In this document: positions 1-21,718 of the stretch, piece after piece
Numbering within the stretch: position 1 is the stretch's first letter
Layout of the letters: each line of letters begins with the position of its first letter
Source of the DNA: a virus
IMG/VR virus record: IMGVR_UViG_3300022927_000134
Span: 1 to 22,559 of that record
Length of the DNA stretch: 22,559 nt
Reading direction: 5' to 3' (one strand)
Position numbers and translations under genes: made by a program
The notes under the pieces: model-generated
The model's input: the letters and a program-made list of their open reading frames with translations, nothing else
Database searches by the model: none
Told to the model about the DNA's origin: nothing

Positions 1-2477
1 CCACTTGACCTTAAATTCTCATTAAACTGATTTACTACCTGGAATTCTGGCATAAGGTTCGCACCTTTCCAGACACTCATCTTTTCGACTCGTCCTCCAA
101 TATTAACAGATCGCTTCTCTGGAACAATGTGTGCAGAAACACCCTGCTTAAGATTATCTATCTGTTCTTGACGGAGTGGCATCTTATCTTTTTTATACTT
201 AGCTGCAAGTTCATCAATAGCTTTTAGCTCAGCTTCCATAGTTGACCACGTCATTTGTCTACGTGCGTTTGATATGGCTCTAGGAGAAGAATGTTTCTCT
301 TCAATTAGACTTTTACCGCTTGCAAATCTAGGAATCTCACCAGCGATAAGCTGTGAAATTGCTTGTGGATTTTTTCTTACAACATCTGCTGGGATAATAG
401 CTTCACCATTAGAAACCATAGCCATAATAGAATCAGAAGTTCCAGTGCCAGGGCCACGGATAATACCACCAGTCGCAGCCTTTGGAATATTGACACTGCC
501 ACCCTTGCCACCCTTAACTGAACCAGCACCCATAAATGCTCTTTGTGCAATGATGCCCTTCTCATACTCTAGAGTAAGAGCACGTACTGCTGCTGTCTCT
601 GAAGTAAATATTGGAGTAAGAGATGCGTGGCTCTGCCCCAAAGCCATGGCTGCAGCCTCAGCCTCAAGCTGTGTAGTAGCCATATATTGTGTAGAAGTAG
701 CAACACTATTCATACCAGCTGAAGCAGAACCAACCCTGCTCAATGTTGCAATAAGAAGACCAATGTTTGCTATACCGTTACCAACAAGACCAATAATCAT
801 TAGAAGCGTAGGGGCAATAACACCAAGAATAGCTGTTAGTGCAATAGTAAATCTTTTTGGACCCTCGCCCATCTCATTAAATTTCTTTAATAAGGTTGTT
901 CCAAACTCTATAATCGGAGTAACTGCTTTAAGGAATTCTTCACCAACTGGTGCTAGCTCTATCTTTAAATCTTCTACTGCCTTTTTAAACTTATAAAGTG
1001 GTGAGGATTCCACACGCTTAAGCTCTCGCTCACTCAGTACAGCCAGCTCTTCAGCACTGGCAGAAGTAAGCTTTAGAACTCTTTCAGCCTGAGAACCTTC
1101 CTTGATTACGTTTTGCATCAAAGTTGAAATTCTAGCAAACTGGAACTTACCGAATAGTTCTTCAATAGCTCTTGCTTTATTGAGAGGGTCTAGAGTGTCT
1201 AGGGCAGTTGCCAAAGCAACAATAGTTCCCTTTACGTCGCCAGCATTACCTTCTACAATTCCGTTAATGTTAATACCAAGCCCAGCAAGCATTTCTGATG
1301 CTCGATCTGTTGGATTAATAATCCTTGCCAAACCAGACTTTAGAGCGTTAGCACCCTCTGATGCATTAATTCCACCTTCCTTCATGGCGGTAAGTAAGAA
1401 TGCGAGATCCTCAACATCTCCACCAAGCTGTTTGACTACTGGACCAGCTTTTGGAATAGCAGTGGTAAGATCTTCAATGCTAACAACAGTTTGGTTTTCA
1501 ACTGCGTTAAGGAAGTCAATCTTATTAGCAAGCTCTTCTGTGGCAACACCAAATGCGTTAGTTAATGAGATTGTTGTTTCTAGGGCTTTATCTTGCTCTA
1601 CCCCACCGAGGACGGCAAGGGTAGCAGCTTGTCTAACCTGTGCCATAAGATCTGCACCAGTCTTACCCATTGCAGCTGCGTCAGCAGCCATCTTCATGGT
1701 GTCTTTAAGAGCAACACCATATTTTGTAAACTCTGAACCAAGGCCCTGAAGATCCTTGTACATTTGATCTGTTTCTTTTTGAGAAGTAAACAGCTCACCA
1801 TAAACACGCTTAAACCTAATAGCCTGTTCTTCAAGATCCATAAATGTTCTTGCAGCAACAGAGCCAAACAAGGTTAGTGGAAGAGTAAAACCAACCATAA
1901 GCTGACGACCAGCCCACTGAGTATTCTTACCCCAGTTTAGTAGGCTAGTAGAACCCTGCCTCAACAGCTGATTAAATAATGCTTGTCTTTGTGCTGCTAT
2001 TGCTGTTCTAGTAGCAAGGTTTTCCATATCAAGGGCAAGTGGCCTAACGGCAATAGCCCTCATTGCACCGTTGGCATCACGACCCATCTTTATGTATTGG
2101 GTCTGAAGAGTCTTTACTCTTTCACGAGCAACCCTATTAATAGTGTCAAACTCACTACGAAAAACTCTTCCAAATGTTTTTGTTGAAGCAACACCATACT
2201 TGAAGTATTGACCAAGAGATAGTTTGTTTGTTTCTAATGCACGAGTAAAAGCACTAGTTGTACTTGCAACAGTTGTCATTTGTGCAGAAAACTGACCAGT
2301 AGCATTAATGCTATTGATCAGGTTTCTCTGCATACCTGCAGCTTGTGAGGCTGCCTGTGCATTTAGTGCTGACTGCGTTTGGTGAAATTTTGATATTTCT
2401 GCTTGCAAAGCACGGATAGAAGCCAGTGCCTTAGAAGTATCAAGATTTACACTAAGATGGGCTTGTGCATCAGCCAT
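1..2477 (-). CDS. Tail tape-measure protein (3' end beyond window)
   Basis: The tape-measure protein sets tail length and fills the tail tube before DNA ejection. The reading frame is open from an ATG at 2477 to the left edge, about 825 residues with no stop, so the C-terminus is missing. Residues roughly 190-410 resemble the TP901-type tape-measure core (TMADAAAMGKTG-like helices, then NAFGVATEELANKID). Two adjacent hydrophobic segments lie near residues 540-582. A glycine motif, GGIIRGPGTGTSDSIMAMVS, near residue 667 is typical of tape-measure proteins. The start is supported by a GGGAGT Shine-Dalgarno sequence (2486-2491) eight bases upstream, just before the stop of the upstream short chaperone. 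Position after tail tube and chaperones is canonical. Identification rests on visible motifs and gene order. The two plus-strand frames at 274-996 and 1102-1749 are antisense shadows of this gene. Confidence 0.93.
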   Translation of the reverse strand, partial: MADAQAHLSVNLDTSKALASIRALQAEISKFHQTQSALNAQAASQAAGMQRNLINSINATGQFSAQMTTVASTTSAFTRALETNKLSLGQYFKYGVASTKTFGRVFRSEFDTINRVARERVKTLQTQYIKMGRDANGAMRAIAVRPLALDMENLATRTAIAAQRQALFNQLLRQGSTSLLNWGKNTQWAGRQLMVGFTLPLTLFGSVAARTFMDLEEQAIRFKRVYGELFTSQKETDQMYKDLQGLGSEFTKYGVALKDTMKMAADAAAMGKTGADLMAQVRQAATLAVLGGVEQDKALETTISLTNAFGVATEELANKIDFLNAVENQTVVSIEDLTTAIPKAGPVVKQLGGDVEDLAFLLTAMKEGGINASEGANALKSGLARIINPTDRASEMLAGLGININGIVEGNAGDVKGTIVALATALDTLDPLNKARAIEELFGKFQFARISTLMQNVIKEGSQAERVLKLTSASAEELAVLSERELKRVESSPLYKFKKAVEDLKIELAPVGEEFLKAVTPIIEFGTTLLKKFNEMGEGPKRFTIALTAILGVIAPTLLMIIGLVGNGIANIGLLIATLSRVGSASAGMNSVATSTQYMATTQLEAEAAAMALGQSHASLTPIFTSETAAVRALTLEYEKGIIAQRAFMGAGSVKGGKGGSVNIPKAATGGIIRGPGTGTSDSIMAMVSNGEAIIPADVVRKNPQAISQLIAGEIPRFASGKSLIEEKHSSPRAISNARRQMTWSTMEAELKAIDELAAKYKKDKMPLRQEQIDNLKQGVSAHIVPEKRSVNIGGRVEKMSVWKGANLMPEFQVVNQFNENLRSS

Positions 2478-2491
2478 TAATAATTACTCCC

Positions 2492-2803
2492 TTATTGTTG
2501 AATAAGAGAATCTGTCAGTCTCACCCCAGATGCCTCTTCGACAATCTTGTATACTGTTGGTAGATCAAGAAGGTCTTCTAGCTTTTCTGCATCATCAGCT
2601 AGTTCTGGCTTATACTGCCTCATAGCAATCTGAACACATTCAATTAAAATTGTCATAGATTTTTCGTTATCTGATGAGACTTCTTGTACTTCTTCAAATT
2701 TTTTCATAAATAGTTTTAGTAGAGAAATCTTTAGTGGTCTAATGTTAAATTTTGTCCCATCGATAAGTGTAATTTCTTTTTCTTCGTTTATGTTTGTTGC
2801 CAT
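2492..2803 (-). CDS. Short tail-assembly chaperone (gpG-like paralog)
   Basis: This 103-residue protein aligns along nearly its whole length with residues 1-97 of the 231-residue protein encoded just upstream. By eye about 35 of 87 positions are identical, including IDGT, PLKI, an EC pair, M-x-QY-x-P and DLPTVYKI. It lacks the second domain of that protein. Its place directly before the tape-measure gene is where phages encode the chaperones that coat that protein during tail assembly, usually as a short form and a frameshifted long form. Here the short form seems to be its own gene. It has a Shine-Dalgarno sequence AAAGGAG at 2814-2820 and its own TGTTATAAT box at 2834-2842. No extended frame continues past its stop. 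The chaperone role is inferred from position and paralogy. Confidence 0.75.
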   Translation of the reverse strand: MATNINEEKEITLIDGTKFNIRPLKISLLKLFMKKFEEVQEVSSDNEKSMTILIECVQIAMRQYKPELADDAEKLEDLLDLPTVYKIVEEASGVRLTDSLIQQ

Positions 2804-2833
2804 TGATCTCTTTCTCCTTTACTTGGCTATACT

Positions 2834-2842
2834 ATTATAACA
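2834..2842 (-). promoter_or_regulatory. Extended -10 promoter before short chaperone
   Basis: The minus strand reads TGTTATAAT, a perfect extended -10 element, immediately after the stop codon of the long chaperone gene. A start about seven bases downstream would leave a leader of roughly 24 bases that contains the AAAGGAG ribosome site. No -35 box is seen at normal spacing. The 13 bases TATAATAGTATAG starting here are identical to those of the box before the tail-tube gene (4303-4308). Confidence 0.6.
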
Positions 2843-2847
2843 TAGTC

Positions 2848-3543
2848 CTAGTCTTTTTTACGTTCAATTTTTTCGTATGAAAGACCCATACCAATACCAA
2901 ACCCAGCCTTTTGAGCGTTAAGTCCTCGTAGTGCTGTAATGTCGTTTGGATTATCTGTTGCTCCACCGCTGAATACTCTGGCTTTCATTTCTTCCCAAGC
3001 ATTGTTTTTGCCAGATTGTTCATCAAGATCCACGCCTTGCATAGCTGCGAGGAATTTCTTTTCATTGTAGTCTAAATCTCTTATTTTTTCAATAACAGCA
3101 ATAAGTTCTGCCATTGTCATAGAAAGTTCAAGATCTTCAAAATTTTTCCAAGCACCAATAATAAAAGCTTCTGCTTCCAGAGAGGCTAGGTCTAGATTTT
3201 CCCACGTATTCTTGTCGCTCTGGTCCTTAGCTTGTTTGTCTACATCGTCTTCATCAGGATTAATTTTAATGCCAGCACATATTTCTAAAATCTTATACAC
3301 TGTAGGCAAATCAACAAGCTCTTCTAGATCTTCTTTGCTAGCAACTATTGGATAATACTGCTTCATACAAACAGTAGCACATTCTGACAAAACAGCTATA
3401 GACTGCTCATCATTTGCAGTAAATTTAATAAGTTGAAATATGTCCATAAACTCTCTCATGAACTTAATTTTTAAAGGACCCAGATTAACCAAAGTTCCAT
3501 CAATAAAAACTACAGAATCTGTTTCATAAACTTTTTTAGCCAT
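2848..3543 (-). CDS. Long tail-assembly chaperone (two-domain, GT-like)
   Basis: This 231-residue protein has two parts. Residues 1-97 are paralogous to the short protein encoded downstream. Residues about 113-231 form a second domain with a helical FEDLELSMTMAELIAVIEK segment, LAAMQGVDLDE and a C-terminal GIGMGLSYEKIE, resembling the second domain of siphophage tail-assembly chaperones. It sits between the tail-tube gene and the tape-measure gene, as expected. The long form is encoded in one continuous frame, so no frameshift is needed to make it. There is no Shine-Dalgarno sequence. The ATG lies exactly six bases after a TGCTACAAT box, consistent with a leaderless mRNA. A strong terminator lies just upstream. 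Function is inferred from position and domain resemblance. Confidence 0.78.
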   Translation of the reverse strand: MAKKVYETDSVVFIDGTLVNLGPLKIKFMREFMDIFQLIKFTANDEQSIAVLSECATVCMKQYYPIVASKEDLEELVDLPTVYKILEICAGIKINPDEDDVDKQAKDQSDKNTWENLDLASLEAEAFIIGAWKNFEDLELSMTMAELIAVIEKIRDLDYNEKKFLAAMQGVDLDEQSGKNNAWEEMKARVFSGGATDNPNDITALRGLNAQKAGFGIGMGLSYEKIERKKD

Positions 3544-3549
3544 TACTAT

Positions 3550-3558
3550 ATTGTAGCA
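3550..3558 (-). promoter_or_regulatory. Extended -10, leaderless start of long chaperone
   Basis: The minus strand reads TGCTACAAT, then ATAGTA, then the ATG at 3543. A transcript starting seven bases after the box would begin on the A of the ATG. The gene has no Shine-Dalgarno sequence. The element sits immediately after the tail-tube terminator, so it would restart transcription for the chaperone and tape-measure genes. Confidence 0.6.
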
Positions 3559-3596
3559 AAAGAAATACCGCCCAGGGTGGTTGCCCTGGGCGGTAT
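3557..3596 (-). terminator. Intrinsic terminator after tail-tube gene
   Basis: A perfect 13-bp inverted repeat (3565-3577 and 3584-3596, arm ATACCGCCCAGGG) encloses a six-base loop. On the minus strand it is followed by TTTCTTTTGC, a U-rich run. The plus-strand side lacks a U-run, so the terminator acts on minus-strand transcription. It lies 14 bases past the tail-tube stop codon. Confidence 0.9.
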
Positions 3597-3609: not shown

Positions 3610-4251
3610 CTATGAAACGAGAGAGATAGTTCTGTCAACGATCTTACCATATGAAGCTGTGTCATTTGGAAGAAGGCGGAAAGAAACCTCGAACATAGTT
3701 GGCTCGTCACGCTTAGCGGATACTGTAACATTCTCAATTGAGAGTGCACGGTAAGCAACGTATACGCGCTCGATGGATTCTGATGCTGCACAGTCACCTG
3801 TACCTGGACCAACTGCAACTAGACCACGCTCTACTGGACATTCACCGATGTCACCAGCACTCATGTTGAGAACTGGGTTACCATTGAATGGACCAGAAGC
3901 TGCTGTAGCTAGATCTGAGTCCTGACCAGCGATTGAGTAGAGAAGGTTCTCTAGAGTTGCCTCAGCGAATGCAGTGTTAAGGTTAACCTGCATACCCTGC
4001 TTGTAAAGCTTGGCAACGTCGAGCACCTGGTCTACCTGGACTTCACCGAAGTCTGGCTGGAAAACGATCTCAAGACCGTTCATGGTGTATCCAACATTAC
4101 GGAAGTCAGTGTCATCGGTAAGAGTGTCTTTGTAGCTCTCATCCTCAACAACTGTAGGAAGGTCGGTGTCAGCCAACTCTCCTGCTTCGTAAGTGAATAG
4201 CGCAGCAGCACCCACGATAATCTGTGAGCTATTACCACGAGTATATGCCAT
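3610..4251 (-). CDS. Major tail protein (tail tube)
   Basis: This 213-residue protein is the likely tail-tube subunit. The evidence is its position (after the tail terminator, before chaperones and tape measure), its size, its beta-rich polar composition, and the dedicated terminator behind it, which suits an abundant protein. The frame can be opened at a GTG at 4260, but that GTG lies inside the Shine-Dalgarno sequence GAGGTG (4258-4263). The ATG at 4251, six bases after it, is the better start and gives MAYTRGNSSQ. A TATAAT box lies at 4303-4308. No catalytic motif or membrane segment is seen. No tail-sheath gene is nearby, so a non-contractile tail is inferred. Identification rests on context more than on a signature motif. 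Confidence 0.85.
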   Translation of the reverse strand: MAYTRGNSSQIIVGAAALFTYEAGELADTDLPTVVEDESYKDTLTDDTDFRNVGYTMNGLEIVFQPDFGEVQVDQVLDVAKLYKQGMQVNLNTAFAEATLENLLYSIAGQDSDLATAASGPFNGNPVLNMSAGDIGECPVERGLVAVGPGTGDCAASESIERVYVAYRALSIENVTVSAKRDEPTMFEVSFRLLPNDTASYGKIVDRTISLVS

Positions 4252-9714: not shown

Positions 9715-11316
9715 TTATTGGCTTGCTGGACCTTCACCCTGTGCATTACGACCATCTACTGTACCAGGACTATCTGCCTGATTGTTTGATCGCTCTGTAT
9801 CCCTTGCTCTATTCTGAGCAGTGTTTGCTCTCATGTCAGTTGCCTGACGAGATGTCATCTGAAATGGTGCGTCACCATCTGTTCTCTGCGGAAGACCAAG
9901 CTGCTGCCTTGCTTCGTTAGGAGTAATTACTTGTGTTTTAACATAACGTTCAATAATTTGTGATTGTGCAATCTCATCTGTAAGCGTAAGCTCGTTAAAC
10001 TTAAAATCAATAATGTCTGTACGTTCTTTGATAATTCTATTGATCATCTTTTCCAGATTACGTTGTGCTGGTCTTGACACCTGCTCTTTGAATGTACGAT
10101 CTTGTGCGAGAGCTGCAGCAATAGCTGTTCTGTCGCCACCACCAATCTTAGAAAGTGGAACCTGGTGGGCAATAAGAATGTCATCCCTGTTTTGTAAACG
10201 ATATTCTTTGAAGGATGCTTCTTGAACTCCATTCTCAATTGGCTCCATGTTGAATTCAACCTTGTTGCCATCTGAATCTCCTGGGAGTGGAATATATAGG
10301 CTTCGGTGTGACTGCCCCTTAAGGTTAGTCTGAAGAAATCTAAATAGCTTATCTTCTGCGTCTGAAGACAGCTTTGCACCCTTAAGAGTAACAATGTAAC
10401 GTGGCACTGCTTTGTTACCAAAGTAGTCAATGTTGTATTGTGAAGCTAGCTGATCTCCTTGCAAAGATGTAATAGCTGACATGATGTCTGGAACACCATA
10501 GAATGTGTTTAGTGGTGAATATTCTTTATAGTGAAGAATTTCGTTTGGTCTTGGATCTGTTGTCATTGGGTTTGGGTTCTTTGCCCCGAAGTTTCTGAAG
10601 TAAACAACCTTCTGTCCAATTATCTGTACGTACCCGTCACGCAATCTGCGCACACGCATTGTAGTTGATGGGATGTGGCCGACATAGCCGATCTCTCCGT
10701 TGATAGTTCTACCAATTTCTAAATACCCGTTTCCTGTCGCTTGTACATCTGTGTAAAATTTAATTAGTGTTTGTGTAAATGAGTCATCATCATTTAGGTT
10801 TTCTAGCCAGTCTCTTAGCTCTACCTTTGCTCTTTCAATTCTTTTACGAGCACGGGCTGTTGCTTCTTGATCTGAGTTGTCATCAAGACGTAGCATTGTT
10901 CTCTTAGATGTTTCAAAATCATATCCAAGCCCAACAATGTTTTCTACCTTAGCATCAATAGCTGCGTGGTTTGCAAAAGAGGTGTCGTAATAATTTGCAA
11001 GCTCATAGAGATTCCAAGGTGGTGTAATAACGTCAAACATTCCGTAGCCATTACGGAAAACATCGCCAGGATTAATCTCTTTAGACTTTGCGCCTTCAAT
11101 GCCAGATGGTGTAGATTTCGCTGCCTCAAGATATCCATTGCTTGGTGGCATTGATGCTACCTTTGCTACCCTGCTTGTGCGACGCTTAAAGTTTGTGTCT
11201 AAGCCACTGAATGTTTTTAGATCATTCCAGTCTTTACTGAATGGATCTTGTGCTTTAAACAAGTCTTCTTCTTGTGGCATCTCTGGCATAGATGCACCAA
11301 CAATGTATTCAGCCAT
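9715..11316 (-). CDS. Portal protein
   Basis: This 533-residue protein forms the dodecameric ring through which DNA enters and leaves the head. It shows portal-family features: ANYYDTSFANHAAIDAKVEN near the N-terminus, TGNGYLEIGR near residue 191, VGHIPSTTMRVRR, ILHYKEYSPLNTFYGVPDI near residue 265, YFGNKAVPRYIV, and a helical C-terminal region ending in a polar, disordered tail (TERSNNQADSPGTVDG). The start shares one base with the upstream stop (TAATG) and follows GAGG. This places it in an operon with the 122-residue protein. The next gene downstream is the protease, as in HK97-type head modules. Confidence 0.94.
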   Translation of the reverse strand: MAEYIVGASMPEMPQEEDLFKAQDPFSKDWNDLKTFSGLDTNFKRRTSRVAKVASMPPSNGYLEAAKSTPSGIEGAKSKEINPGDVFRNGYGMFDVITPPWNLYELANYYDTSFANHAAIDAKVENIVGLGYDFETSKRTMLRLDDNSDQEATARARKRIERAKVELRDWLENLNDDDSFTQTLIKFYTDVQATGNGYLEIGRTINGEIGYVGHIPSTTMRVRRLRDGYVQIIGQKVVYFRNFGAKNPNPMTTDPRPNEILHYKEYSPLNTFYGVPDIMSAITSLQGDQLASQYNIDYFGNKAVPRYIVTLKGAKLSSDAEDKLFRFLQTNLKGQSHRSLYIPLPGDSDGNKVEFNMEPIENGVQEASFKEYRLQNRDDILIAHQVPLSKIGGGDRTAIAAALAQDRTFKEQVSRPAQRNLEKMINRIIKERTDIIDFKFNELTLTDEIAQSQIIERYVKTQVITPNEARQQLGLPQRTDGDAPFQMTSRQATDMRANTAQNRARDTERSNNQADSPGTVDGRNAQGEGPASQ

Positions 11317-11684
11317 TATTCCTCATCACCATACTGCTTAATAGTTTGCTTTGCTGCGTGTACAGCACCGAGGTCGTTAAGGTTAGGAATAAGACCCTCT
11401 TGCATTCTATTTAGCTGTTCGCTGTATTCTTCATCAGAAACTCTGTTTAGTCCAGCAAAAAAATGTGGACTGCCATCTGGCTCTCCGTAATGTGCTGCTG
11501 CAGCCTGAAGCTTTGCTAGCTGAGAAATGTCACCTTTATGTGAAGGAATATTTAAAATATTGCCATTTCCGTCAGTAAACCATTTACCATTAGCTTTTTT
11601 CCACACATAGATGCCCCAATCATACTGCTTGTCAATAATTGTGGCTTTGCTTTTACCAATTGGATTCTTTTTGTGGTTGGACAT
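11316..11684 (-). CDS. Small protein upstream of portal, function unknown
   Basis: This 122-residue protein starts MSNHKKNPIGKSKATIID. It has an aromatic, possibly folded N-terminal part (YDWGIYVWKKANGKWFTDGN) and a helical, charged second half. I do not recognise a family. It overlaps the portal start by one base, so it is probably translated with the portal and may be head-related. It has no Shine-Dalgarno sequence. The ATG is exactly six bases after a TGTTATAAT box, so its mRNA is predicted to be leaderless and to carry the portal gene as well. Confidence 0.75.
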   Translation of the reverse strand: MSNHKKNPIGKSKATIIDKQYDWGIYVWKKANGKWFTDGNGNILNIPSHKGDISQLAKLQAAAAHYGEPDGSPHFFAGLNRVSDEEYSEQLNRMQEGLIPNLNDLGAVHAAKQTIKQYGDEE

Positions 11685-11701: not shown

Positions 11702-14700
11702 TTATACTGGCTTAATGGTAGCTGACTGTACAGAAATGTTGTTTATAACTGAATATTGTATATTTTTAGGACCAGAAGCAATGTCGTCTCCTACAATAAC
11801 CTTATTAGTTCCAGTAAAAATTCCATATATTACTTCTGGATCTATTCCCACATATTCGGTAGCTGAAAGAACTTCTAGTTGAGCCTGTTGTAGATTATTT
11901 AATGCATAATATGAAATATTATTAACCATAATTGGTCCAACAACATTAAGCTTTCCAGATATGCCGTCTAGATCTAGCAATGTTTCTAATCCAATAGAGA
12001 TCATATTCCAATCATTAATTGATATTGTTGGATCAGCAACCCTCTTGCCGTTGACATAAAAGTATAAAGATCTAATTCTCTCATCGTTATTATTTGTAGC
12101 AAATATTCTAAATCTTTTATTTGATGGATAAGCTGGTTCTATCCATATCTTGATTCTTTCGGTTGCAAAGTTAGTCTCTAAATGCATAATTTCTACTGGT
12201 TCGGTAACCAAATCGTCTCTAGTGAATCGTGCAGAGAACTGAATGGTAGATAACTTATACTGTGCTGTTTTTTCTTCATTAATTAATAAAGACAATCCCC
12301 TGTTGGAGTCTGTAAAATCACCAGCAAGCTCTATACCGCTGTGCTTAGTCAAATATAGATGTGGAGTAGAATCTTTATAAATAACAAAAGGGGTTTGCTT
12401 ATTGTAATCATAGTAAATACCATACCTATTGTATGGATACATCGATACCCCACGCTTTGTTCCAATAGGATTCTTTTTGCTAGCATTAAAAGATTTTCCA
12501 GACAAAGACATTGATCTTACCCTAATTGGATTTTTAATAATTCCACTAGATGACATATCCATATGCACAACCATTGCTAGCTCATCTAAACCAATATCTT
12601 GTGGCAAATAAATCAAAGATTGATTTACAACCTCATATTTTGTAGTACGCCAATTTTCTCCAGGAACAATAGTCTTGTTTCTTCCGAGCTTTTGTGTATT
12701 CACAAATTGCTCTTCTGTTTTTGTTGGTCCAGATGCAATAGTTTGGAATGTCACATATGTTTTAATCGAAGAGCTACTGGTATCATAATTGTCTTCATCA
12801 TCAAAGAAAAGAGGTACAGTGGTATCTGAATTATATTGGATAAAGTCAAGCTTGTAGGAAATCTCTTCATTTAATCCAAAAGTATTTTTGGCCAAATATG
12901 TTAGCGGAACATAGTCTTGCCAATAAGAGCTTGTTGCTATGTCTAAATACCTTTCACCAAAAAAGCTTTTAACTACTAATGTGTAACTGGCTGTATGCGA
13001 AAGAATGTCATCAACATATTCTTCATATGTATATCCAGCATCGATTGTTATACCAGTGAACTCGTCATCATCGTATGATGTATCTGATCCGCCTTCAAAC
13101 TGATATCTAAGAAATGGTGTTCCGTTAGAAGAAAAAAGATAATCAAGCTTATCTATATTTCTTAATGTAGAAAAGCCAACCCTATAAATATTACCAGAGA
13201 AAGTGTTAGAGAAGTTTTTATTACCACCGACATACAGCTTTAGCTGTCTTCTGTTTCCAATCAATGTTGAAACATTGCCACCGAAATATTTTGCAAACTC
13301 TATGAAGTTTAGTCCAGCAACGATTGTTGTTCCTAATGCTATAGCTGGTGTTTGATATATAACCTCTTCATTAGAATTAAATGTTAAGCTATATTGTATT
13401 ACGTGATAGATTCCCTCCACAGAATCTTCAGCTATAGAAGATATAGATATTGCGTCACCATCTTTAATGTTAGAAATACTAAACGTGTCATCATCAATCT
13501 TAGTTACATAATACTCTATACCAGCAATAATTTCTGATGGTAGCGATCCTTCAAAACGTATTACGTCATATGTTTGTAAATCATGGCTATTAGAAGTTAA
13601 AACAGTCCCATCAATTGATGCAATGTCAATACTTTTTGTAGCAAGACTAACATCAAGATAATTACCAGTTACTTTATTTTCAAGAACAAAAAGACTTTGA
13701 GTACCAGTCATACCTATCTCTGGTCTAAACAATCCATAGAATCCAGCAGTTTTTTGATTAAGCACATTAGGACTATCAAAGAATAGGTAGCCATCGGTAT
13801 CAATCCATGAGTCATCTGGCTTGAGACTAATACCTTGATATGCATTAGACTTTAATGCCCTATACCATGCGTCAGATGTTTTATTGTTAAATACTAGACT
13901 TGGCAATGAATACTTTGGCGGCTGCAAAACATTATTTTCTGAAGATATGTTTTCAGACACCCCAGATCTCCACTTAACCATATCTGGATAAATATAGTTA
14001 TTGTTATAATTTGCAAAAGTATAATCAACAGGGAATGACTTTCCAGAATATGCTGAGCTTATTGAATATGGAAAATCAATTGCTTGACCATAAACAAATC
14101 TTCTTTTTGATACAGCTGTTGGAACGCGATAAGAATATATTGCTACACAGTCAATCTCAAACTGAAAAATATCTTCATAAGAATAAAATCCAAGCCAGTC
14201 TTGATCTTTTCCAGATAAACTAGTTTTAGACGGTAGATCTAGCTCTGATGTATTAAAACTTAAATCGATTACCTTTTCACCATTGATGATCAACGAAGAG
14301 CCATTTCTAAAAGTAAGAAGATTAATTAGCATTGGCCTATACCATTCACCGATGTAGTGAGATTGTACTGATTCTCCAACCTTTAATGTTATAAAAGGGC
14401 CGTCAACATATAATCCGTCAGAAGAATTAATTGGACCAAAAATTCTTTTTGGCTCATCAGTATCTGGACTAATTCTAAGCCAAAACTCTACCGTATGTGT
14501 TTTATACCTACCATCTTCGTTTAGGAATCCAAGTCCAGGGAAGATCATTGATGGCCCACCAAATCTTTCTGGAATCAAAGATGTTAAATTAGAAGAGCCA
14601 TAAACGATTGGCATATTGGTATTTTTTGCAAGAAGTTTATTTTCTCTAACTAAATAATATGCTGATAAATCTTGAAACCCATAGGCAGCACCCTCTACAT

Positions 14701-15580
14701 AATAATATTCATTGTCAACATTTATTCCAGATAATTCTGTAGAAGATACCCCAAAAGAGTTTTCCATAAACTCTGAAGACCATTGTCCAGCAGATAATCC
14801 GCAGATATAAGATGTAGTAGCTATGGCCTCATATGAATAGAATTTAATCAATGGCTTTAGTTTTAAAACTGGAGTAATAAACAGGTTTCCAAACTGATAG
14901 AAAAACTCTATACTGCCAGAGCCAATAGACTCCTCTACCTCAAACGTGTTTTCTGTAGCGTTTACTACATAATAAATGTGATACTGGCTTATAAGATTTG
15001 GAACTATATATGATGAGCTAAGCTTAATTTTGTCGCCATCGCTTAGTCCATGTGCATTGTATGTAATTTCTGTGAATCCTTCTGACGGATCTTCATCATT
15101 AGTAAAATCAGCAAATGGAATAGAAAGCGAAACTGTTTCTGGCAAAGGTAATGTTTTAGAAACATAGTACCACTGATTAAGTTCAAAATCTATATCTGAT
15201 ACTTCTGCAACCTCTTCGCTTTCACCATAAACATATCCTATATCCAATGACCTTAGATTAGATGATGCTGGATTAAAATAAAAGCCTAAAGTAATACTTT
15301 CTAAATCAGGATTAACATATGAGCTTAAAGGATTTTGATCTGTAATAGAATATTCTAAACTAGAAGAATTAATTTGATAAACATTTTCCCCAACAATCGG
15401 AGCATCAGATTCAGATTCAGACACAGAGCATCCATCTAAAGTATAAATATCTGTATCAGAAATATCACGATTTGCAGCTGGTATAAGTTGAATATAGTCA
15501 ACAGCTTCATCAAAAGGCCATAAGCCTATGGGATGCTCGCCAAAAACTTTTTCGGCATAAAGATTAGAAGGGATTGACAT
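11702..15580 (-). CDS. Large virion protein with LamG/jelly-roll-like domains
   Basis: At 1292 residues this is the largest complete protein here. It begins with a YAEKVFGEHPIGLWPFDE motif, seen in phage structural proteins with laminin-G/concanavalin-like folds. Segments about 355-435 (HTVEFWLRISPDTDEPKRIF, then an INGEKVIDL strand), 610-850 and 1110-1290 (FYVNGKRVADPTISINDW) look like separate jelly-roll domains, which often bind carbohydrate. A beta-domain near 170-226 (NAHGLSDGDKIKL, YYVVNATENTFEV) recurs near 650-715 (NSHDLQTYDVIRF, YYVTKIDDDTFSI). No signal peptide, membrane segment or enzyme motif is visible. It has no Shine-Dalgarno sequence and starts seven bases after a TGATAAAAT box. 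It is probably a host-surface-binding or head/tail decoration protein. Its site on the virion is unknown. Confidence 0.75.
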   Translation of the reverse strand: MSIPSNLYAEKVFGEHPIGLWPFDEAVDYIQLIPAANRDISDTDIYTLDGCSVSESESDAPIVGENVYQINSSSLEYSITDQNPLSSYVNPDLESITLGFYFNPASSNLRSLDIGYVYGESEEVAEVSDIDFELNQWYYVSKTLPLPETVSLSIPFADFTNDEDPSEGFTEITYNAHGLSDGDKIKLSSSYIVPNLISQYHIYYVVNATENTFEVEESIGSGSIEFFYQFGNLFITPVLKLKPLIKFYSYEAIATTSYICGLSAGQWSSEFMENSFGVSSTELSGINVDNEYYYVEGAAYGFQDLSAYYLVRENKLLAKNTNMPIVYGSSNLTSLIPERFGGPSMIFPGLGFLNEDGRYKTHTVEFWLRISPDTDEPKRIFGPINSSDGLYVDGPFITLKVGESVQSHYIGEWYRPMLINLLTFRNGSSLIINGEKVIDLSFNTSELDLPSKTSLSGKDQDWLGFYSYEDIFQFEIDCVAIYSYRVPTAVSKRRFVYGQAIDFPYSISSAYSGKSFPVDYTFANYNNNYIYPDMVKWRSGVSENISSENNVLQPPKYSLPSLVFNNKTSDAWYRALKSNAYQGISLKPDDSWIDTDGYLFFDSPNVLNQKTAGFYGLFRPEIGMTGTQSLFVLENKVTGNYLDVSLATKSIDIASIDGTVLTSNSHDLQTYDVIRFEGSLPSEIIAGIEYYVTKIDDDTFSISNIKDGDAISISSIAEDSVEGIYHVIQYSLTFNSNEEVIYQTPAIALGTTIVAGLNFIEFAKYFGGNVSTLIGNRRQLKLYVGGNKNFSNTFSGNIYRVGFSTLRNIDKLDYLFSSNGTPFLRYQFEGGSDTSYDDDEFTGITIDAGYTYEEYVDDILSHTASYTLVVKSFFGERYLDIATSSYWQDYVPLTYLAKNTFGLNEEISYKLDFIQYNSDTTVPLFFDDEDNYDTSSSSIKTYVTFQTIASGPTKTEEQFVNTQKLGRNKTIVPGENWRTTKYEVVNQSLIYLPQDIGLDELAMVVHMDMSSSGIIKNPIRVRSMSLSGKSFNASKKNPIGTKRGVSMYPYNRYGIYYDYNKQTPFVIYKDSTPHLYLTKHSGIELAGDFTDSNRGLSLLINEEKTAQYKLSTIQFSARFTRDDLVTEPVEIMHLETNFATERIKIWIEPAYPSNKRFRIFATNNNDERIRSLYFYVNGKRVADPTISINDWNMISIGLETLLDLDGISGKLNVVGPIMVNNISYYALNNLQQAQLEVLSATEYVGIDPEVIYGIFTGTNKVIVGDDIASGPKNIQYSVINNISVQSATIKPV

Positions 15581-17605: not shown

Positions 17606-18676
17606 CTATTTATTTATAGTCTTGTTAGCGTAATATGCAATATTATTTTTTAGTCTTTCATCATTTGGATTTAGCTCTACTGCTTTAGATCCATATTTTA
17701 GAGCATCGTCATATTTACCCAGCGAATATGACGCTATTGCTGCAAGATCATATGGACGATCTCCCCAAGCCTCGTCTTCGCAAAGATACTCTAAAGGCTT
17801 TTCTGTAATATCTAAAGCTTTAACAGAATACTCCAAGCATTCTTCCCACATGCCGTTTTCATAACAATACGTTGCAAGATCAACTAGTGGCTCTCTTCTA
17901 TTTGGTGTTTCTTTTACTGCTTTTATAAACCATTCTTCACGTTCCTTGCCGTAGCTACATTTAGCAATATAACGCATAGAAGCAGAACGCTCTGGTGGCC
18001 AGGTAGCTTTAGGCAAAGACAGATGTCTGATAAATTCTTTTTTAGCCTCATCTAACTGATAATGAAAAAATAGCTCTCTAGCATAATAATGAGTATTACG
18101 ATCATCTGATGGATCTTCTTCTACAGCAAGTTTTAATAGTGGCATGTATTGTCCACGTGATTTAGAATGATCTGGATGGTGATGTATTTCTAAATCTACC
18201 CAGCTTTGTTTCTCTTCAATTCTGTCTGTAGTTAATACTTCGTGAACTGGATGCTTCCAGCGGTATCCAAATCTAGAATGAATCTTATCTCCACCATACT
18301 GCAATCCAGGAATAGTTTCTTCTTCATCTTTCCAAGACCATGTGTACTGATACCGTGGACGTGTAGCTCCTTCTTTATGAGCTTGTTCAAGCTTTTCTTT
18401 CCAACCAGGCAACAGCACTTCATCCATATCGAGTGCAATACAATAGTCAATATCTTCTGGTAGCAATGCTAGAGCAGCATTGCGAGCATTATCAAAACGC
18501 CAAGGTCTAACAAGAATGGAAGCAACCTCTATGCCATATTTAGCAGCGGTAAGTAAAGTATCATCTGTACTACCAGTATCAGCAATCAGAAGATAATCGG
18601 CATCTTTAGCTGATTCATACCAACGTTCAATAAACTGCTCTTCATTCAAAGCAATAGTATAAACCGCAACTCTCAT
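17606..18676 (-). CDS. Family 2 glycosyltransferase with C-terminal TPR-like repeats
   Basis: This 356-residue protein transfers a sugar from a nucleotide-sugar donor. The N-terminal domain shows family 2 hallmarks: YTIALNEEQFIERW, DTGSTDDT, and the metal-binding DxD-type motif in IALDMDEVLLPGW (about residues 79-91), followed by a KIHSRFGYRWKHPVHEVL segment. The last 150 residues form tetratricopeptide-like helices (ATYCYENGMWEECLEYSVKA, then a repeat of the form YDDALKYGSKAVELNPND). It sits among fibre genes, so it may glycosylate fibre, tail or capsid proteins, as reported for some mycobacteriophages, or alter host surface glycans. The acceptor is unknown. No signal peptide or membrane segment is seen. 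There is no Shine-Dalgarno sequence; the ATG is six bases after TGCTACACT. Confidence 0.9.
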   Translation of the reverse strand: MRVAVYTIALNEEQFIERWYESAKDADYLLIADTGSTDDTLLTAAKYGIEVASILVRPWRFDNARNAALALLPEDIDYCIALDMDEVLLPGWKEKLEQAHKEGATRPRYQYTWSWKDEEETIPGLQYGGDKIHSRFGYRWKHPVHEVLTTDRIEEKQSWVDLEIHHHPDHSKSRGQYMPLLKLAVEEDPSDDRNTHYYARELFFHYQLDEAKKEFIRHLSLPKATWPPERSASMRYIAKCSYGKEREEWFIKAVKETPNRREPLVDLATYCYENGMWEECLEYSVKALDITEKPLEYLCEDEAWGDRPYDLAAIASYSLGKYDDALKYGSKAVELNPNDERLKNNIAYYANKTINK

Positions 18677-20579: not shown

Positions 20580-21026
20580 CTATGCCTTAAGTCCCATGCG
20601 AGCGTATCGCACAGTGACTGGCCTAACGGATGGAATTGGTGTCAAAATTAATTGAACATCATCTCCAGCCTTAGAGACACTAACGGTTCCCATATCCCCA
20701 TCGTTGTCTACAATGCCATACTGAGCAACATTTACATCATCATTATCGATTAGAATTGTTAACTCAGTTGCATAATAATTATTGTCACCATCTGTTGTTT
20801 TAGAAATAGAAACAAGGTATTTAACCATTCTCCATTCATCTGCAACAAAACTGTCAATAACTGTTGTGTTTTCTATTCCAGCAATTTCGTGTTCGTTATT
20901 ACCAGATGATCCGAGATCAGTAGAATTCGCTGCAAGTGTATCAATAAGATCAACAAAGTCGTCTCCGTCTGGCCTATCACCAGTTTCAAAGAGTGCTTTC
21001 AGTGCAGCAAGATCTAGCTTGGACAT
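20580..21026 (-). CDS. Structural protein with fibre-type C-terminal domain
   Basis: This 148-residue protein starts MSKLDLAALKALFETGDRPD and continues FVDLIDTL, a pattern found at the N-terminus of phage structural proteins and fibres. The C-terminal 95 residues (EWRMVKYLVSISKTTDG, ATELTILIDNDDVNVAQYGI, VTVRYARMGL) are homologous to the end of the fibre encoded next. It may be a short fibre or the attachment partner of that fibre. There is no Shine-Dalgarno sequence. The ATG at 21026 is exactly six bases after TGTTATAAT, so a leaderless mRNA is predicted. The downstream fibre gene follows after 17 bases and has its own ribosome site. Confidence 0.75.
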   Translation of the reverse strand: MSKLDLAALKALFETGDRPDGDDFVDLIDTLAANSTDLGSSGNNEHEIAGIENTTVIDSFVADEWRMVKYLVSISKTTDGDNNYYATELTILIDNDDVNVAQYGIVDNDGDMGTVSVSKAGDDVQLILTPIPSVRPVTVRYARMGLKA

Positions 21027-21053: not shown

Positions 21054-21365
21054 TTAAAGAATATAGTTATTAAATCCGATAACAGCCACACCAATAGGTG
21101 GTGGGTTTTCTGGACTATAAGCTGAAAAACCTTTATTAAGAAACTTAACCCTAAAAGGCAACTGTTCTTTAATAATAGTGTTTACCTTAATATCGTTAAT
21201 TCTAGTATTTGGATAATCTTTAGCTTTAATGTTTTTAGACGATGGAGATGCATCAGTAATCTTTACAGAAATATCTTTATCAGATACAGTAGCTCTTCTA
21301 GAATCTTTTTGAACAACAAAATCTAAAAAAAGATCACGCTGTTGAATAATTCTTGCGTTTGCCAT
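21054..21365 (-). CDS. Small protein in fibre cassette, function unknown
   Basis: This 103-residue protein starts MANARIIQQRDLFLDFVVQK. It has a basic first half with strand-like SVKITDASPSSKNIKAKDYP and a proline-rich end (SPENPPPIGVAVIGFNNYIL). I do not recognise a family. The ATG shares a base with the upstream stop (TAATG). No Shine-Dalgarno sequence is visible, so it is probably translated by coupling to the 117-residue gene before it. The two may form a pair of beta-rich baseplate or fibre-attachment proteins. Confidence 0.65.
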   Translation of the reverse strand: MANARIIQQRDLFLDFVVQKDSRRATVSDKDISVKITDASPSSKNIKAKDYPNTRINDIKVNTIIKEQLPFRVKFLNKGFSAYSPENPPPIGVAVIGFNNYIL

Positions 21366-21718
21366 TATTCAGTAACGTCTTCGATGATTACCATGCTACC
21401 CTGTGCAACAGTCCATACTCTTGTAAGATCAGATAGCTGAATATCAAAAACATCTCCAGTCTCTAGTAGCTCTGACTGTGCTGCGGTAAGAGAAACAGTA
21501 AATTCACCTGGATCATCATCTGGTTGTGCTTCTGGAGTAAGATTAACAATATCTGAACCATTACGTTCAATGTCCATGTTGATAGTCCAGTCTTCAATAG
21601 CTAAAGGTAGCTTATCATCATCAGTTACATAAACTTTAAAAGAAGCAGTATCTCCACGAACAACTGTCCATGTGACTTGTGGAGGGGTAACACCTACATT
21701 ATAATTTCTGGTAGCCAT
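21365..21718 (-). CDS. Beta-rich structural protein, BppU-like N-terminus candidate
   Basis: This 117-residue protein starts MATRNYNVGVTPPQVTWTVV. It reads like a single beta-sandwich (RGDTASFKVYVTDDDKLPLA, DWTINMDIERNGSD, FTVSLTAAQSELLETG, YDIQLSD-like), a layout seen in baseplate upper proteins of Gram-positive siphophages. That assignment is tentative. It starts eight bases after a TGGTATAAT box and has no Shine-Dalgarno sequence, so the predicted leader is about two bases. Its stop overlaps the next start. The neighbours suggest a role in anchoring fibres. Confidence 0.65.
   Translation of the reverse strand: MATRNYNVGVTPPQVTWTVVRGDTASFKVYVTDDDKLPLAIEDWTINMDIERNGSDIVNLTPEAQPDDDPGEFTVSLTAAQSELLETGDVFDIQLSDLTRVWTVAQGSMVIIEDVTE

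Follow-up and report, generated by a model that had tools for sequence, protein, structure and literature searches.

The DNA analysed here, referred to as the window, is a viral stretch of 22,559 nucleotides (IMG/VR record IMGVR_UViG_3300022927_000134) in which a pair of related genes lies between the major tail protein gene and the tape measure (PhageMin_Tail) gene. On the minus strand, the order is major tail protein, a long gene (GT), a separate short gene (G) and the start of the tape measure gene (Table 1). The product assigned as major tail protein also matches, weakly, a major tail protein family, and its gene occupies the position of the annotated major tail protein in Streptomyces phages.

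Table 1. Features of the tail region and further genes of the window preceded by a leaderless-type box
Feature	Position	Strand	Remarks
Major tail protein gene, upstream of GT	3610-4251	-	phrog_2175, 2.4e-30
Intrinsic terminator-like hairpin, 13 pairs	3565-3596	-	between major tail protein gene and GT
Extended -10 box TGCTACAAT of GT	3550-3558	-	ends 6 nt before ATG
Fused tail assembly chaperone GT (putative), 231 aa, ATG start	2848-3543	-	phrog_10504 + phrog_10474, frame-split homologs in Streptomyces phages
Extended -10 box TGTTATAAT of separate G	2834-2842	-	ends 30 nt before ATG
Shine-Dalgarno AAGGAG of separate G	2814-2819	-	downstream of TGTTATAAT
Separate short chaperone G (putative), 103 aa, ATG start	2492-2803	-	40% identity to GT G domain
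Tape measure protein gene, 5' part, downstream of G	3-2477	-	PhageMin_Tail PF10145, 3.7e-28; continues past window edge
Other genes with leaderless-type box	11316-11684, 11702-15580, 17606-18676, 20580-21026, 21365-21718	-	

The two proteins share an N-terminal domain, to which the longer one adds a second domain, so that GT consists of a G domain (approximately residues 1-97), a linker and a T domain (approximately residues 114-231). In profile searches, phrog_10504 was matched by both GT (residues 1-106) and the separate G, with E values of 8.5e-20 and 2.6e-22, and phrog_10474, a separate family, was matched by the C-terminal part of GT only (residues 132-189). This assignment of the G and T domains to two different PHROGs gave a first hint that they are encoded in different frames in other phages. 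GT and the separate G are identical at 39 of 97 positions (40%; BLASTP, E = 3e-24), and purifying selection acts on both genes, with median dN/dS values of 0.08 and 0.05. Domain identity, fused state and paralogy are computed from these comparisons, and they bear out what the initial annotation had read at this locus: one uninterrupted frame of 231 residues, a distinct gene of 103 residues on the same strand paralogous to it at about 40%, and no second overlapping frame in the window. The two proteins fall in one family, not in unrelated ones, and the promoter-like boxes lie where it had placed them, TGCTACAAT exactly 6 nt before the ATG of GT and TGTTATAAT before G.

Pfam searches returned no chaperone family for GT, the separate G or 79 fused homologs, 16 of which matched DUF4778 weakly, and a PDB sequence search with the chaperone proteins gave nothing relevant. 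The structural model of GT has a mean pLDDT of 75 and exceeds 90 across most of the G domain; its matches in a viral library include a tail assembly chaperone, the N15 tail assembly protein GT and a tape measure chaperone frameshift protein. Among solved structures, the HK97 chaperone 2ob9 ranked first for G and second for GT, with weak Z scores of 4.3-4.6, a level that does not exclude chance; the separate G in particular had the HK97 tail assembly chaperone as its best match at a weak Z of 4.6. Foldseek found no significant match in the PDB. Position, homology and predicted structure thus suggest that the two genes encode the forms of a tail assembly chaperone.

Some relatives of this pair have a frameshift layout. 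A tblastn search against annotated phages matched 130 records (best E 2e-33), 127 of them from Streptomyces phages and many annotated as tail assembly chaperone. The Streptomyces phage records examined in detail belong to Stanwilliamsviridae; there the matches come in two pieces, and the Emma1919 record gives the long form as a joined CDS with a frameshift. We assembled 100 distinct loci in the frameshift state from IMG/VR environmental loci and three Stanwilliamsviridae isolates. In all of them T comes after G in the -1 frame, and 96 carry an in-phase CCCAAAC, CCCAAAT or CCCAAAA heptamer within the G/T overlap, the rest having variants of it. A Shine-Dalgarno sequence precedes the frameshift-state G gene in 96 of 96 cases, and an extended -10 box lies 4-9 nt before the start in none of the 96. 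In 79 of these 96 distinct sister-clade G genes, the start codon behind the strong Shine-Dalgarno is TTG (loci L014-L022, L179-L258 and relatives). As a separate observation, Streptomyces phage Faust (L423:1193-1842) has a 60-bp second chaperone gene annotated where the homologous T frame should be longer; it is probably a misannotated frameshift product. WhiB genes occur in all nine long contigs (9/9), in both clades, and among 14 control genomes only in Corynebacterium, which points to actinobacterial hosts.

The clade of the window has a different arrangement. Searches with GT, G, T and the tape measure gene alone yielded 150 distinct loci with G and T joined in a single frame and another G downstream. 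The gap between GT and G is 26-146 nt in 106 of the 107 loci measured, and in uncut loci of the clade GT never occurs without the separate G, nor the reverse. Wherever a fused locus has no separate G, the contig ends there, with the start of the G gene visible in most cases. The collection made with the tape measure gene alone is blind to the state of the chaperone genes: chaperone domains lie directly upstream of the tape measure gene in 80 of its 80 loci, and the order is GT then G in 78, the other two being cut by a contig end. Intermediates, either a frameshift pair with an extra G or a fused GT alone, were absent from the loci inspected. The known members of the clade are all uncultured, and no relative of the fused gene was found in a prophage or host genome among the genome contigs searched.

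A frameshift hidden in the fused gene was also considered. No conserved in-phase slippery heptamer exists at the fused G/T junction in the 150 distinct relatives; heptamers of scattered kinds occur in codons 85-120 of 26 of the 150 fused genes. For want of a conserved in-phase heptamer at the junction, this candidate was rejected, although a non-canonical frameshift may yield some short form from the fused gene. The slippery site is computed to be missing, and the frameshift appears to have been lost in the clade of the window, where the long form would need none. With the frameshift layout in relatives and a fused GT followed by a separate G throughout the clade, the survey upholds the central proposal of the initial annotation, that the two chaperone forms come from duplicated genes and not from a frameshift.

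The tree of the G domain resolves three groups (SH-aLRT 82, 96 and 97), made up of the G halves of GT, of the separate Gs and of the frameshift Gs; the first two stand together opposite the third with an SH-aLRT of 97. The T-domain tree likewise splits the fused T from the frameshift T (support 99/94). Mean identity is 41% between the separate G and GT, and 35% between the separate G and the frameshift G. Taken together, the trees and identities make a single duplication most likely, at the base of the window's clade and after its split from the sampled frameshifting lineages. Phage tail modules often recombine, and the separate G could on that account have been imported from another phage rather than duplicated. 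We consider this very improbable, since the separate Gs fall on the side of the GT G halves, against all frameshift Gs, and are nearer to GT by identity. The trees being unrooted, the direction of change follows from the distribution of frameshifting, which we regard as ancestral because it is present in the isolates and in unrelated phages (PMC5009743). In the ancestor, G would have come from a single gene, on which a -1 slip of the ribosome at a CCCAAAC-type site also gave GT. The lineage of the window would then have duplicated the G part once and fused one copy in frame to T, the other remaining as a stand-alone gene just before the tape measure gene.

The expression signals of the two genes are opposite in kind. 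Promoter and terminator calls are consensus matches, the extended -10 box being defined as TGnTAnnnT. Such a box lies 4-9 nt before the ATG in 139 of 150 distinct GT genes and exactly 6 nt before it in 87, against a background of 1.3% of 31,003 ATGs in the same loci. Of the 11 GT genes without the extended box, most carry TATACT or TATAAT at a distance of 6 nt, the TG being absent. The GT box itself is variable (TATAAT in 41 of 139; the rest TATACT, TAAACT, TACAAT and others). From its 6-nt spacing, TGCTACAAT is predicted to start the RNA on the A of the GT ATG. GT of the window has no Shine-Dalgarno, and one of at least 4 bases was found in only 1 of the 150 GT genes. Because an extended -10 box stands at the ATG and a Shine-Dalgarno is absent, the GT mRNA is predicted to be leaderless. 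The sequence preceding GT folds stably in every one of the 150 relatives, with an MFE below -12 (median -25). The separate G has its box 23-44 nt before the start in 149 of 150 relatives, as TATAAT in 148, and a Shine-Dalgarno of at least 4 bases in 149 of 150. The conservation of both sets of signals is computed, and RNA 5' ends and leaderless translation are predicted from it. The strong terminator-like hairpin shortly before GT and the leaderless implication for GT had both been overlooked in the initial annotation.

Elsewhere in the window, the combination of an extended -10 box, here ending 6-8 nt ahead of the ATG, with no clear Shine-Dalgarno recurs at five more genes, which suggests that leaderless expression is common in this phage beyond the tail region as well. 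One of these genes (11702-15580), predicted to encode 1292 aa, adjoins a portal-like gene and has no significant Pfam or PHROGs match.

It might be argued that the short paralog has diverged and taken on a different task, such as serving as chaperone for another tail protein, and that the fused gene makes both forms through an undetected frameshift in the manner of dnaX. The paralogs indeed average only about 41% identity, and five alignment columns are fixed differently between the separate G and the G half of GT. We nevertheless judge this improbable, given the lack of a conserved in-phase slippery heptamer at the fused junction. Moreover, the short gene adjoins the tape measure gene in every uncut locus, retains the promoter and Shine-Dalgarno type of the ancestral G, and is the slower-evolving of the two G copies, with a mean identity within groups of 71% for the separate G and 52% for the G half of GT.

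The explanation that we favor, and hold to be highly probable as a whole, is that these are G and GT chaperones which arose by one duplication of G and an in-frame fusion to GT, that this arrangement replaced the frameshift, and that G is expected to exceed GT. The stand-alone G would have kept the ancestral type of signals, a strong -10 box with a Shine-Dalgarno, and GT would have gained a promoter of its own, more degenerate, with the RNA starting at the ATG. The terminator before GT would separate GT from the RNA of the major tail protein. The search for a terminator between GT and G in the window found none, so that GT transcripts should also carry G. Read-through from GT, together with an extra strong promoter for G, would bring G in excess of GT as in phage lambda, in which the G:GT ratio is about 30:1 (PMC5009743). 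By analogy with lambda, many copies of G and few of GT might coat the tape measure protein, the T part recruiting the major tail protein.

Since the promoter and Shine-Dalgarno signals of GT and G are opposite, the ratio of the two forms is most likely set at initiation, by promoter strength and initiation mode, and not by ribosomal slippage. The initial annotation had suggested that transcription sets it, which is plausible but incomplete: leaderless and Shine-Dalgarno initiation differ just as consistently between the two genes, and the GT transcript probably continues through G. With the same proteins and the same duplication, the ratio might even be fixed mainly by translation (leaderless against Shine-Dalgarno) or by late regulation, the -10 boxes mattering little. 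The Shine-Dalgarno contrast (1/150 against 149/150) is as sharp as that of the promoters and speaks for such a control, which we consider possible but rather unlikely, since position and consensus are preserved for both boxes and a terminator-like hairpin cuts GT off from the gene before it.

On a broader view, for which the chances seem to us about even, an abundant lineage of actinobacterial phages has swapped a recoding event that ranks with the most conserved of tailed phages, by one duplication and one fusion, for a G that is strong and leadered and a GT that is weak and leaderless. No longer bound to share its codons with the short form, the G half of GT would then have diverged faster and may be specialised for tail initiation. 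It has hitherto been hard to separate what the slip itself provides (co-translation, coupling, a fixed ratio from one mRNA) from what the ratio alone provides. This lineage offers a natural experiment in that respect, with the same protein pair, frameshifting sisters drawn from the same database and what looks like one clean change to two genes whose initiation signals are opposite. Moreover, annotation rules that expect a frameshift would miss or misjoin the GT and G genes.

The proteins themselves are ordinary, and what is new is how the phage produces the two forms. A search of the literature for a fused GT with a duplicate G and opposite initiation signals found none among the papers covered, which take in few subscription journals. 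The -1 frameshift of tail assembly chaperone genes is conserved and widespread in long-tailed phages (PMC5009743). As with G and GT of lambda, the two forms share an N-terminal domain, lie between the major tail protein and tape measure genes, and the short form, in excess in lambda, is expected to be so here. Unlike lambda, the window dispenses with the frameshift; its long form is read from a single uninterrupted frame, and a paralogous gene, equipped with a promoter and a ribosome binding site of its own, encodes the short form. By sequence, the closest isolates are the Stanwilliamsviridae Streptomyces phages (Emma1919, Targaryen, Coruscant, Faust), which share the gene order and have homologous G and T domains, but in them G and T occupy two frames and the interval from T to the tape measure gene holds no annotated second G. 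Microbacterium Cluster EA phages, TeddyBear among them, are reported to have chaperone pairs with no evident frameshift (PMC7302621). BLASTP detects no paralogy between the two genes of TeddyBear (EA1; E 6.2), which match one half each of phrog_18843, a family of longer chaperones; TeddyBear has a split G and T, whereas the window has a fused GT plus a second G. As the genes of TeddyBear, the phage checked, are split and not duplicated, we rejected Microbacterium EA1 as a precedent. Finally, a TANNNT box about 12 bp before the start codon, with no Shine-Dalgarno, is the mark of leaderless genes, which make up more than 20% of the genes of Actinobacteria (PMC3160421). GT of the window resembles these genes in having such a box near its start and no Shine-Dalgarno, but here the leaderless signals are borne by only one of two paralogous chaperone genes. 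The pair would offer a conserved example of one complex whose two paralogs differ in initiation, one being leaderless and the other using a Shine-Dalgarno.
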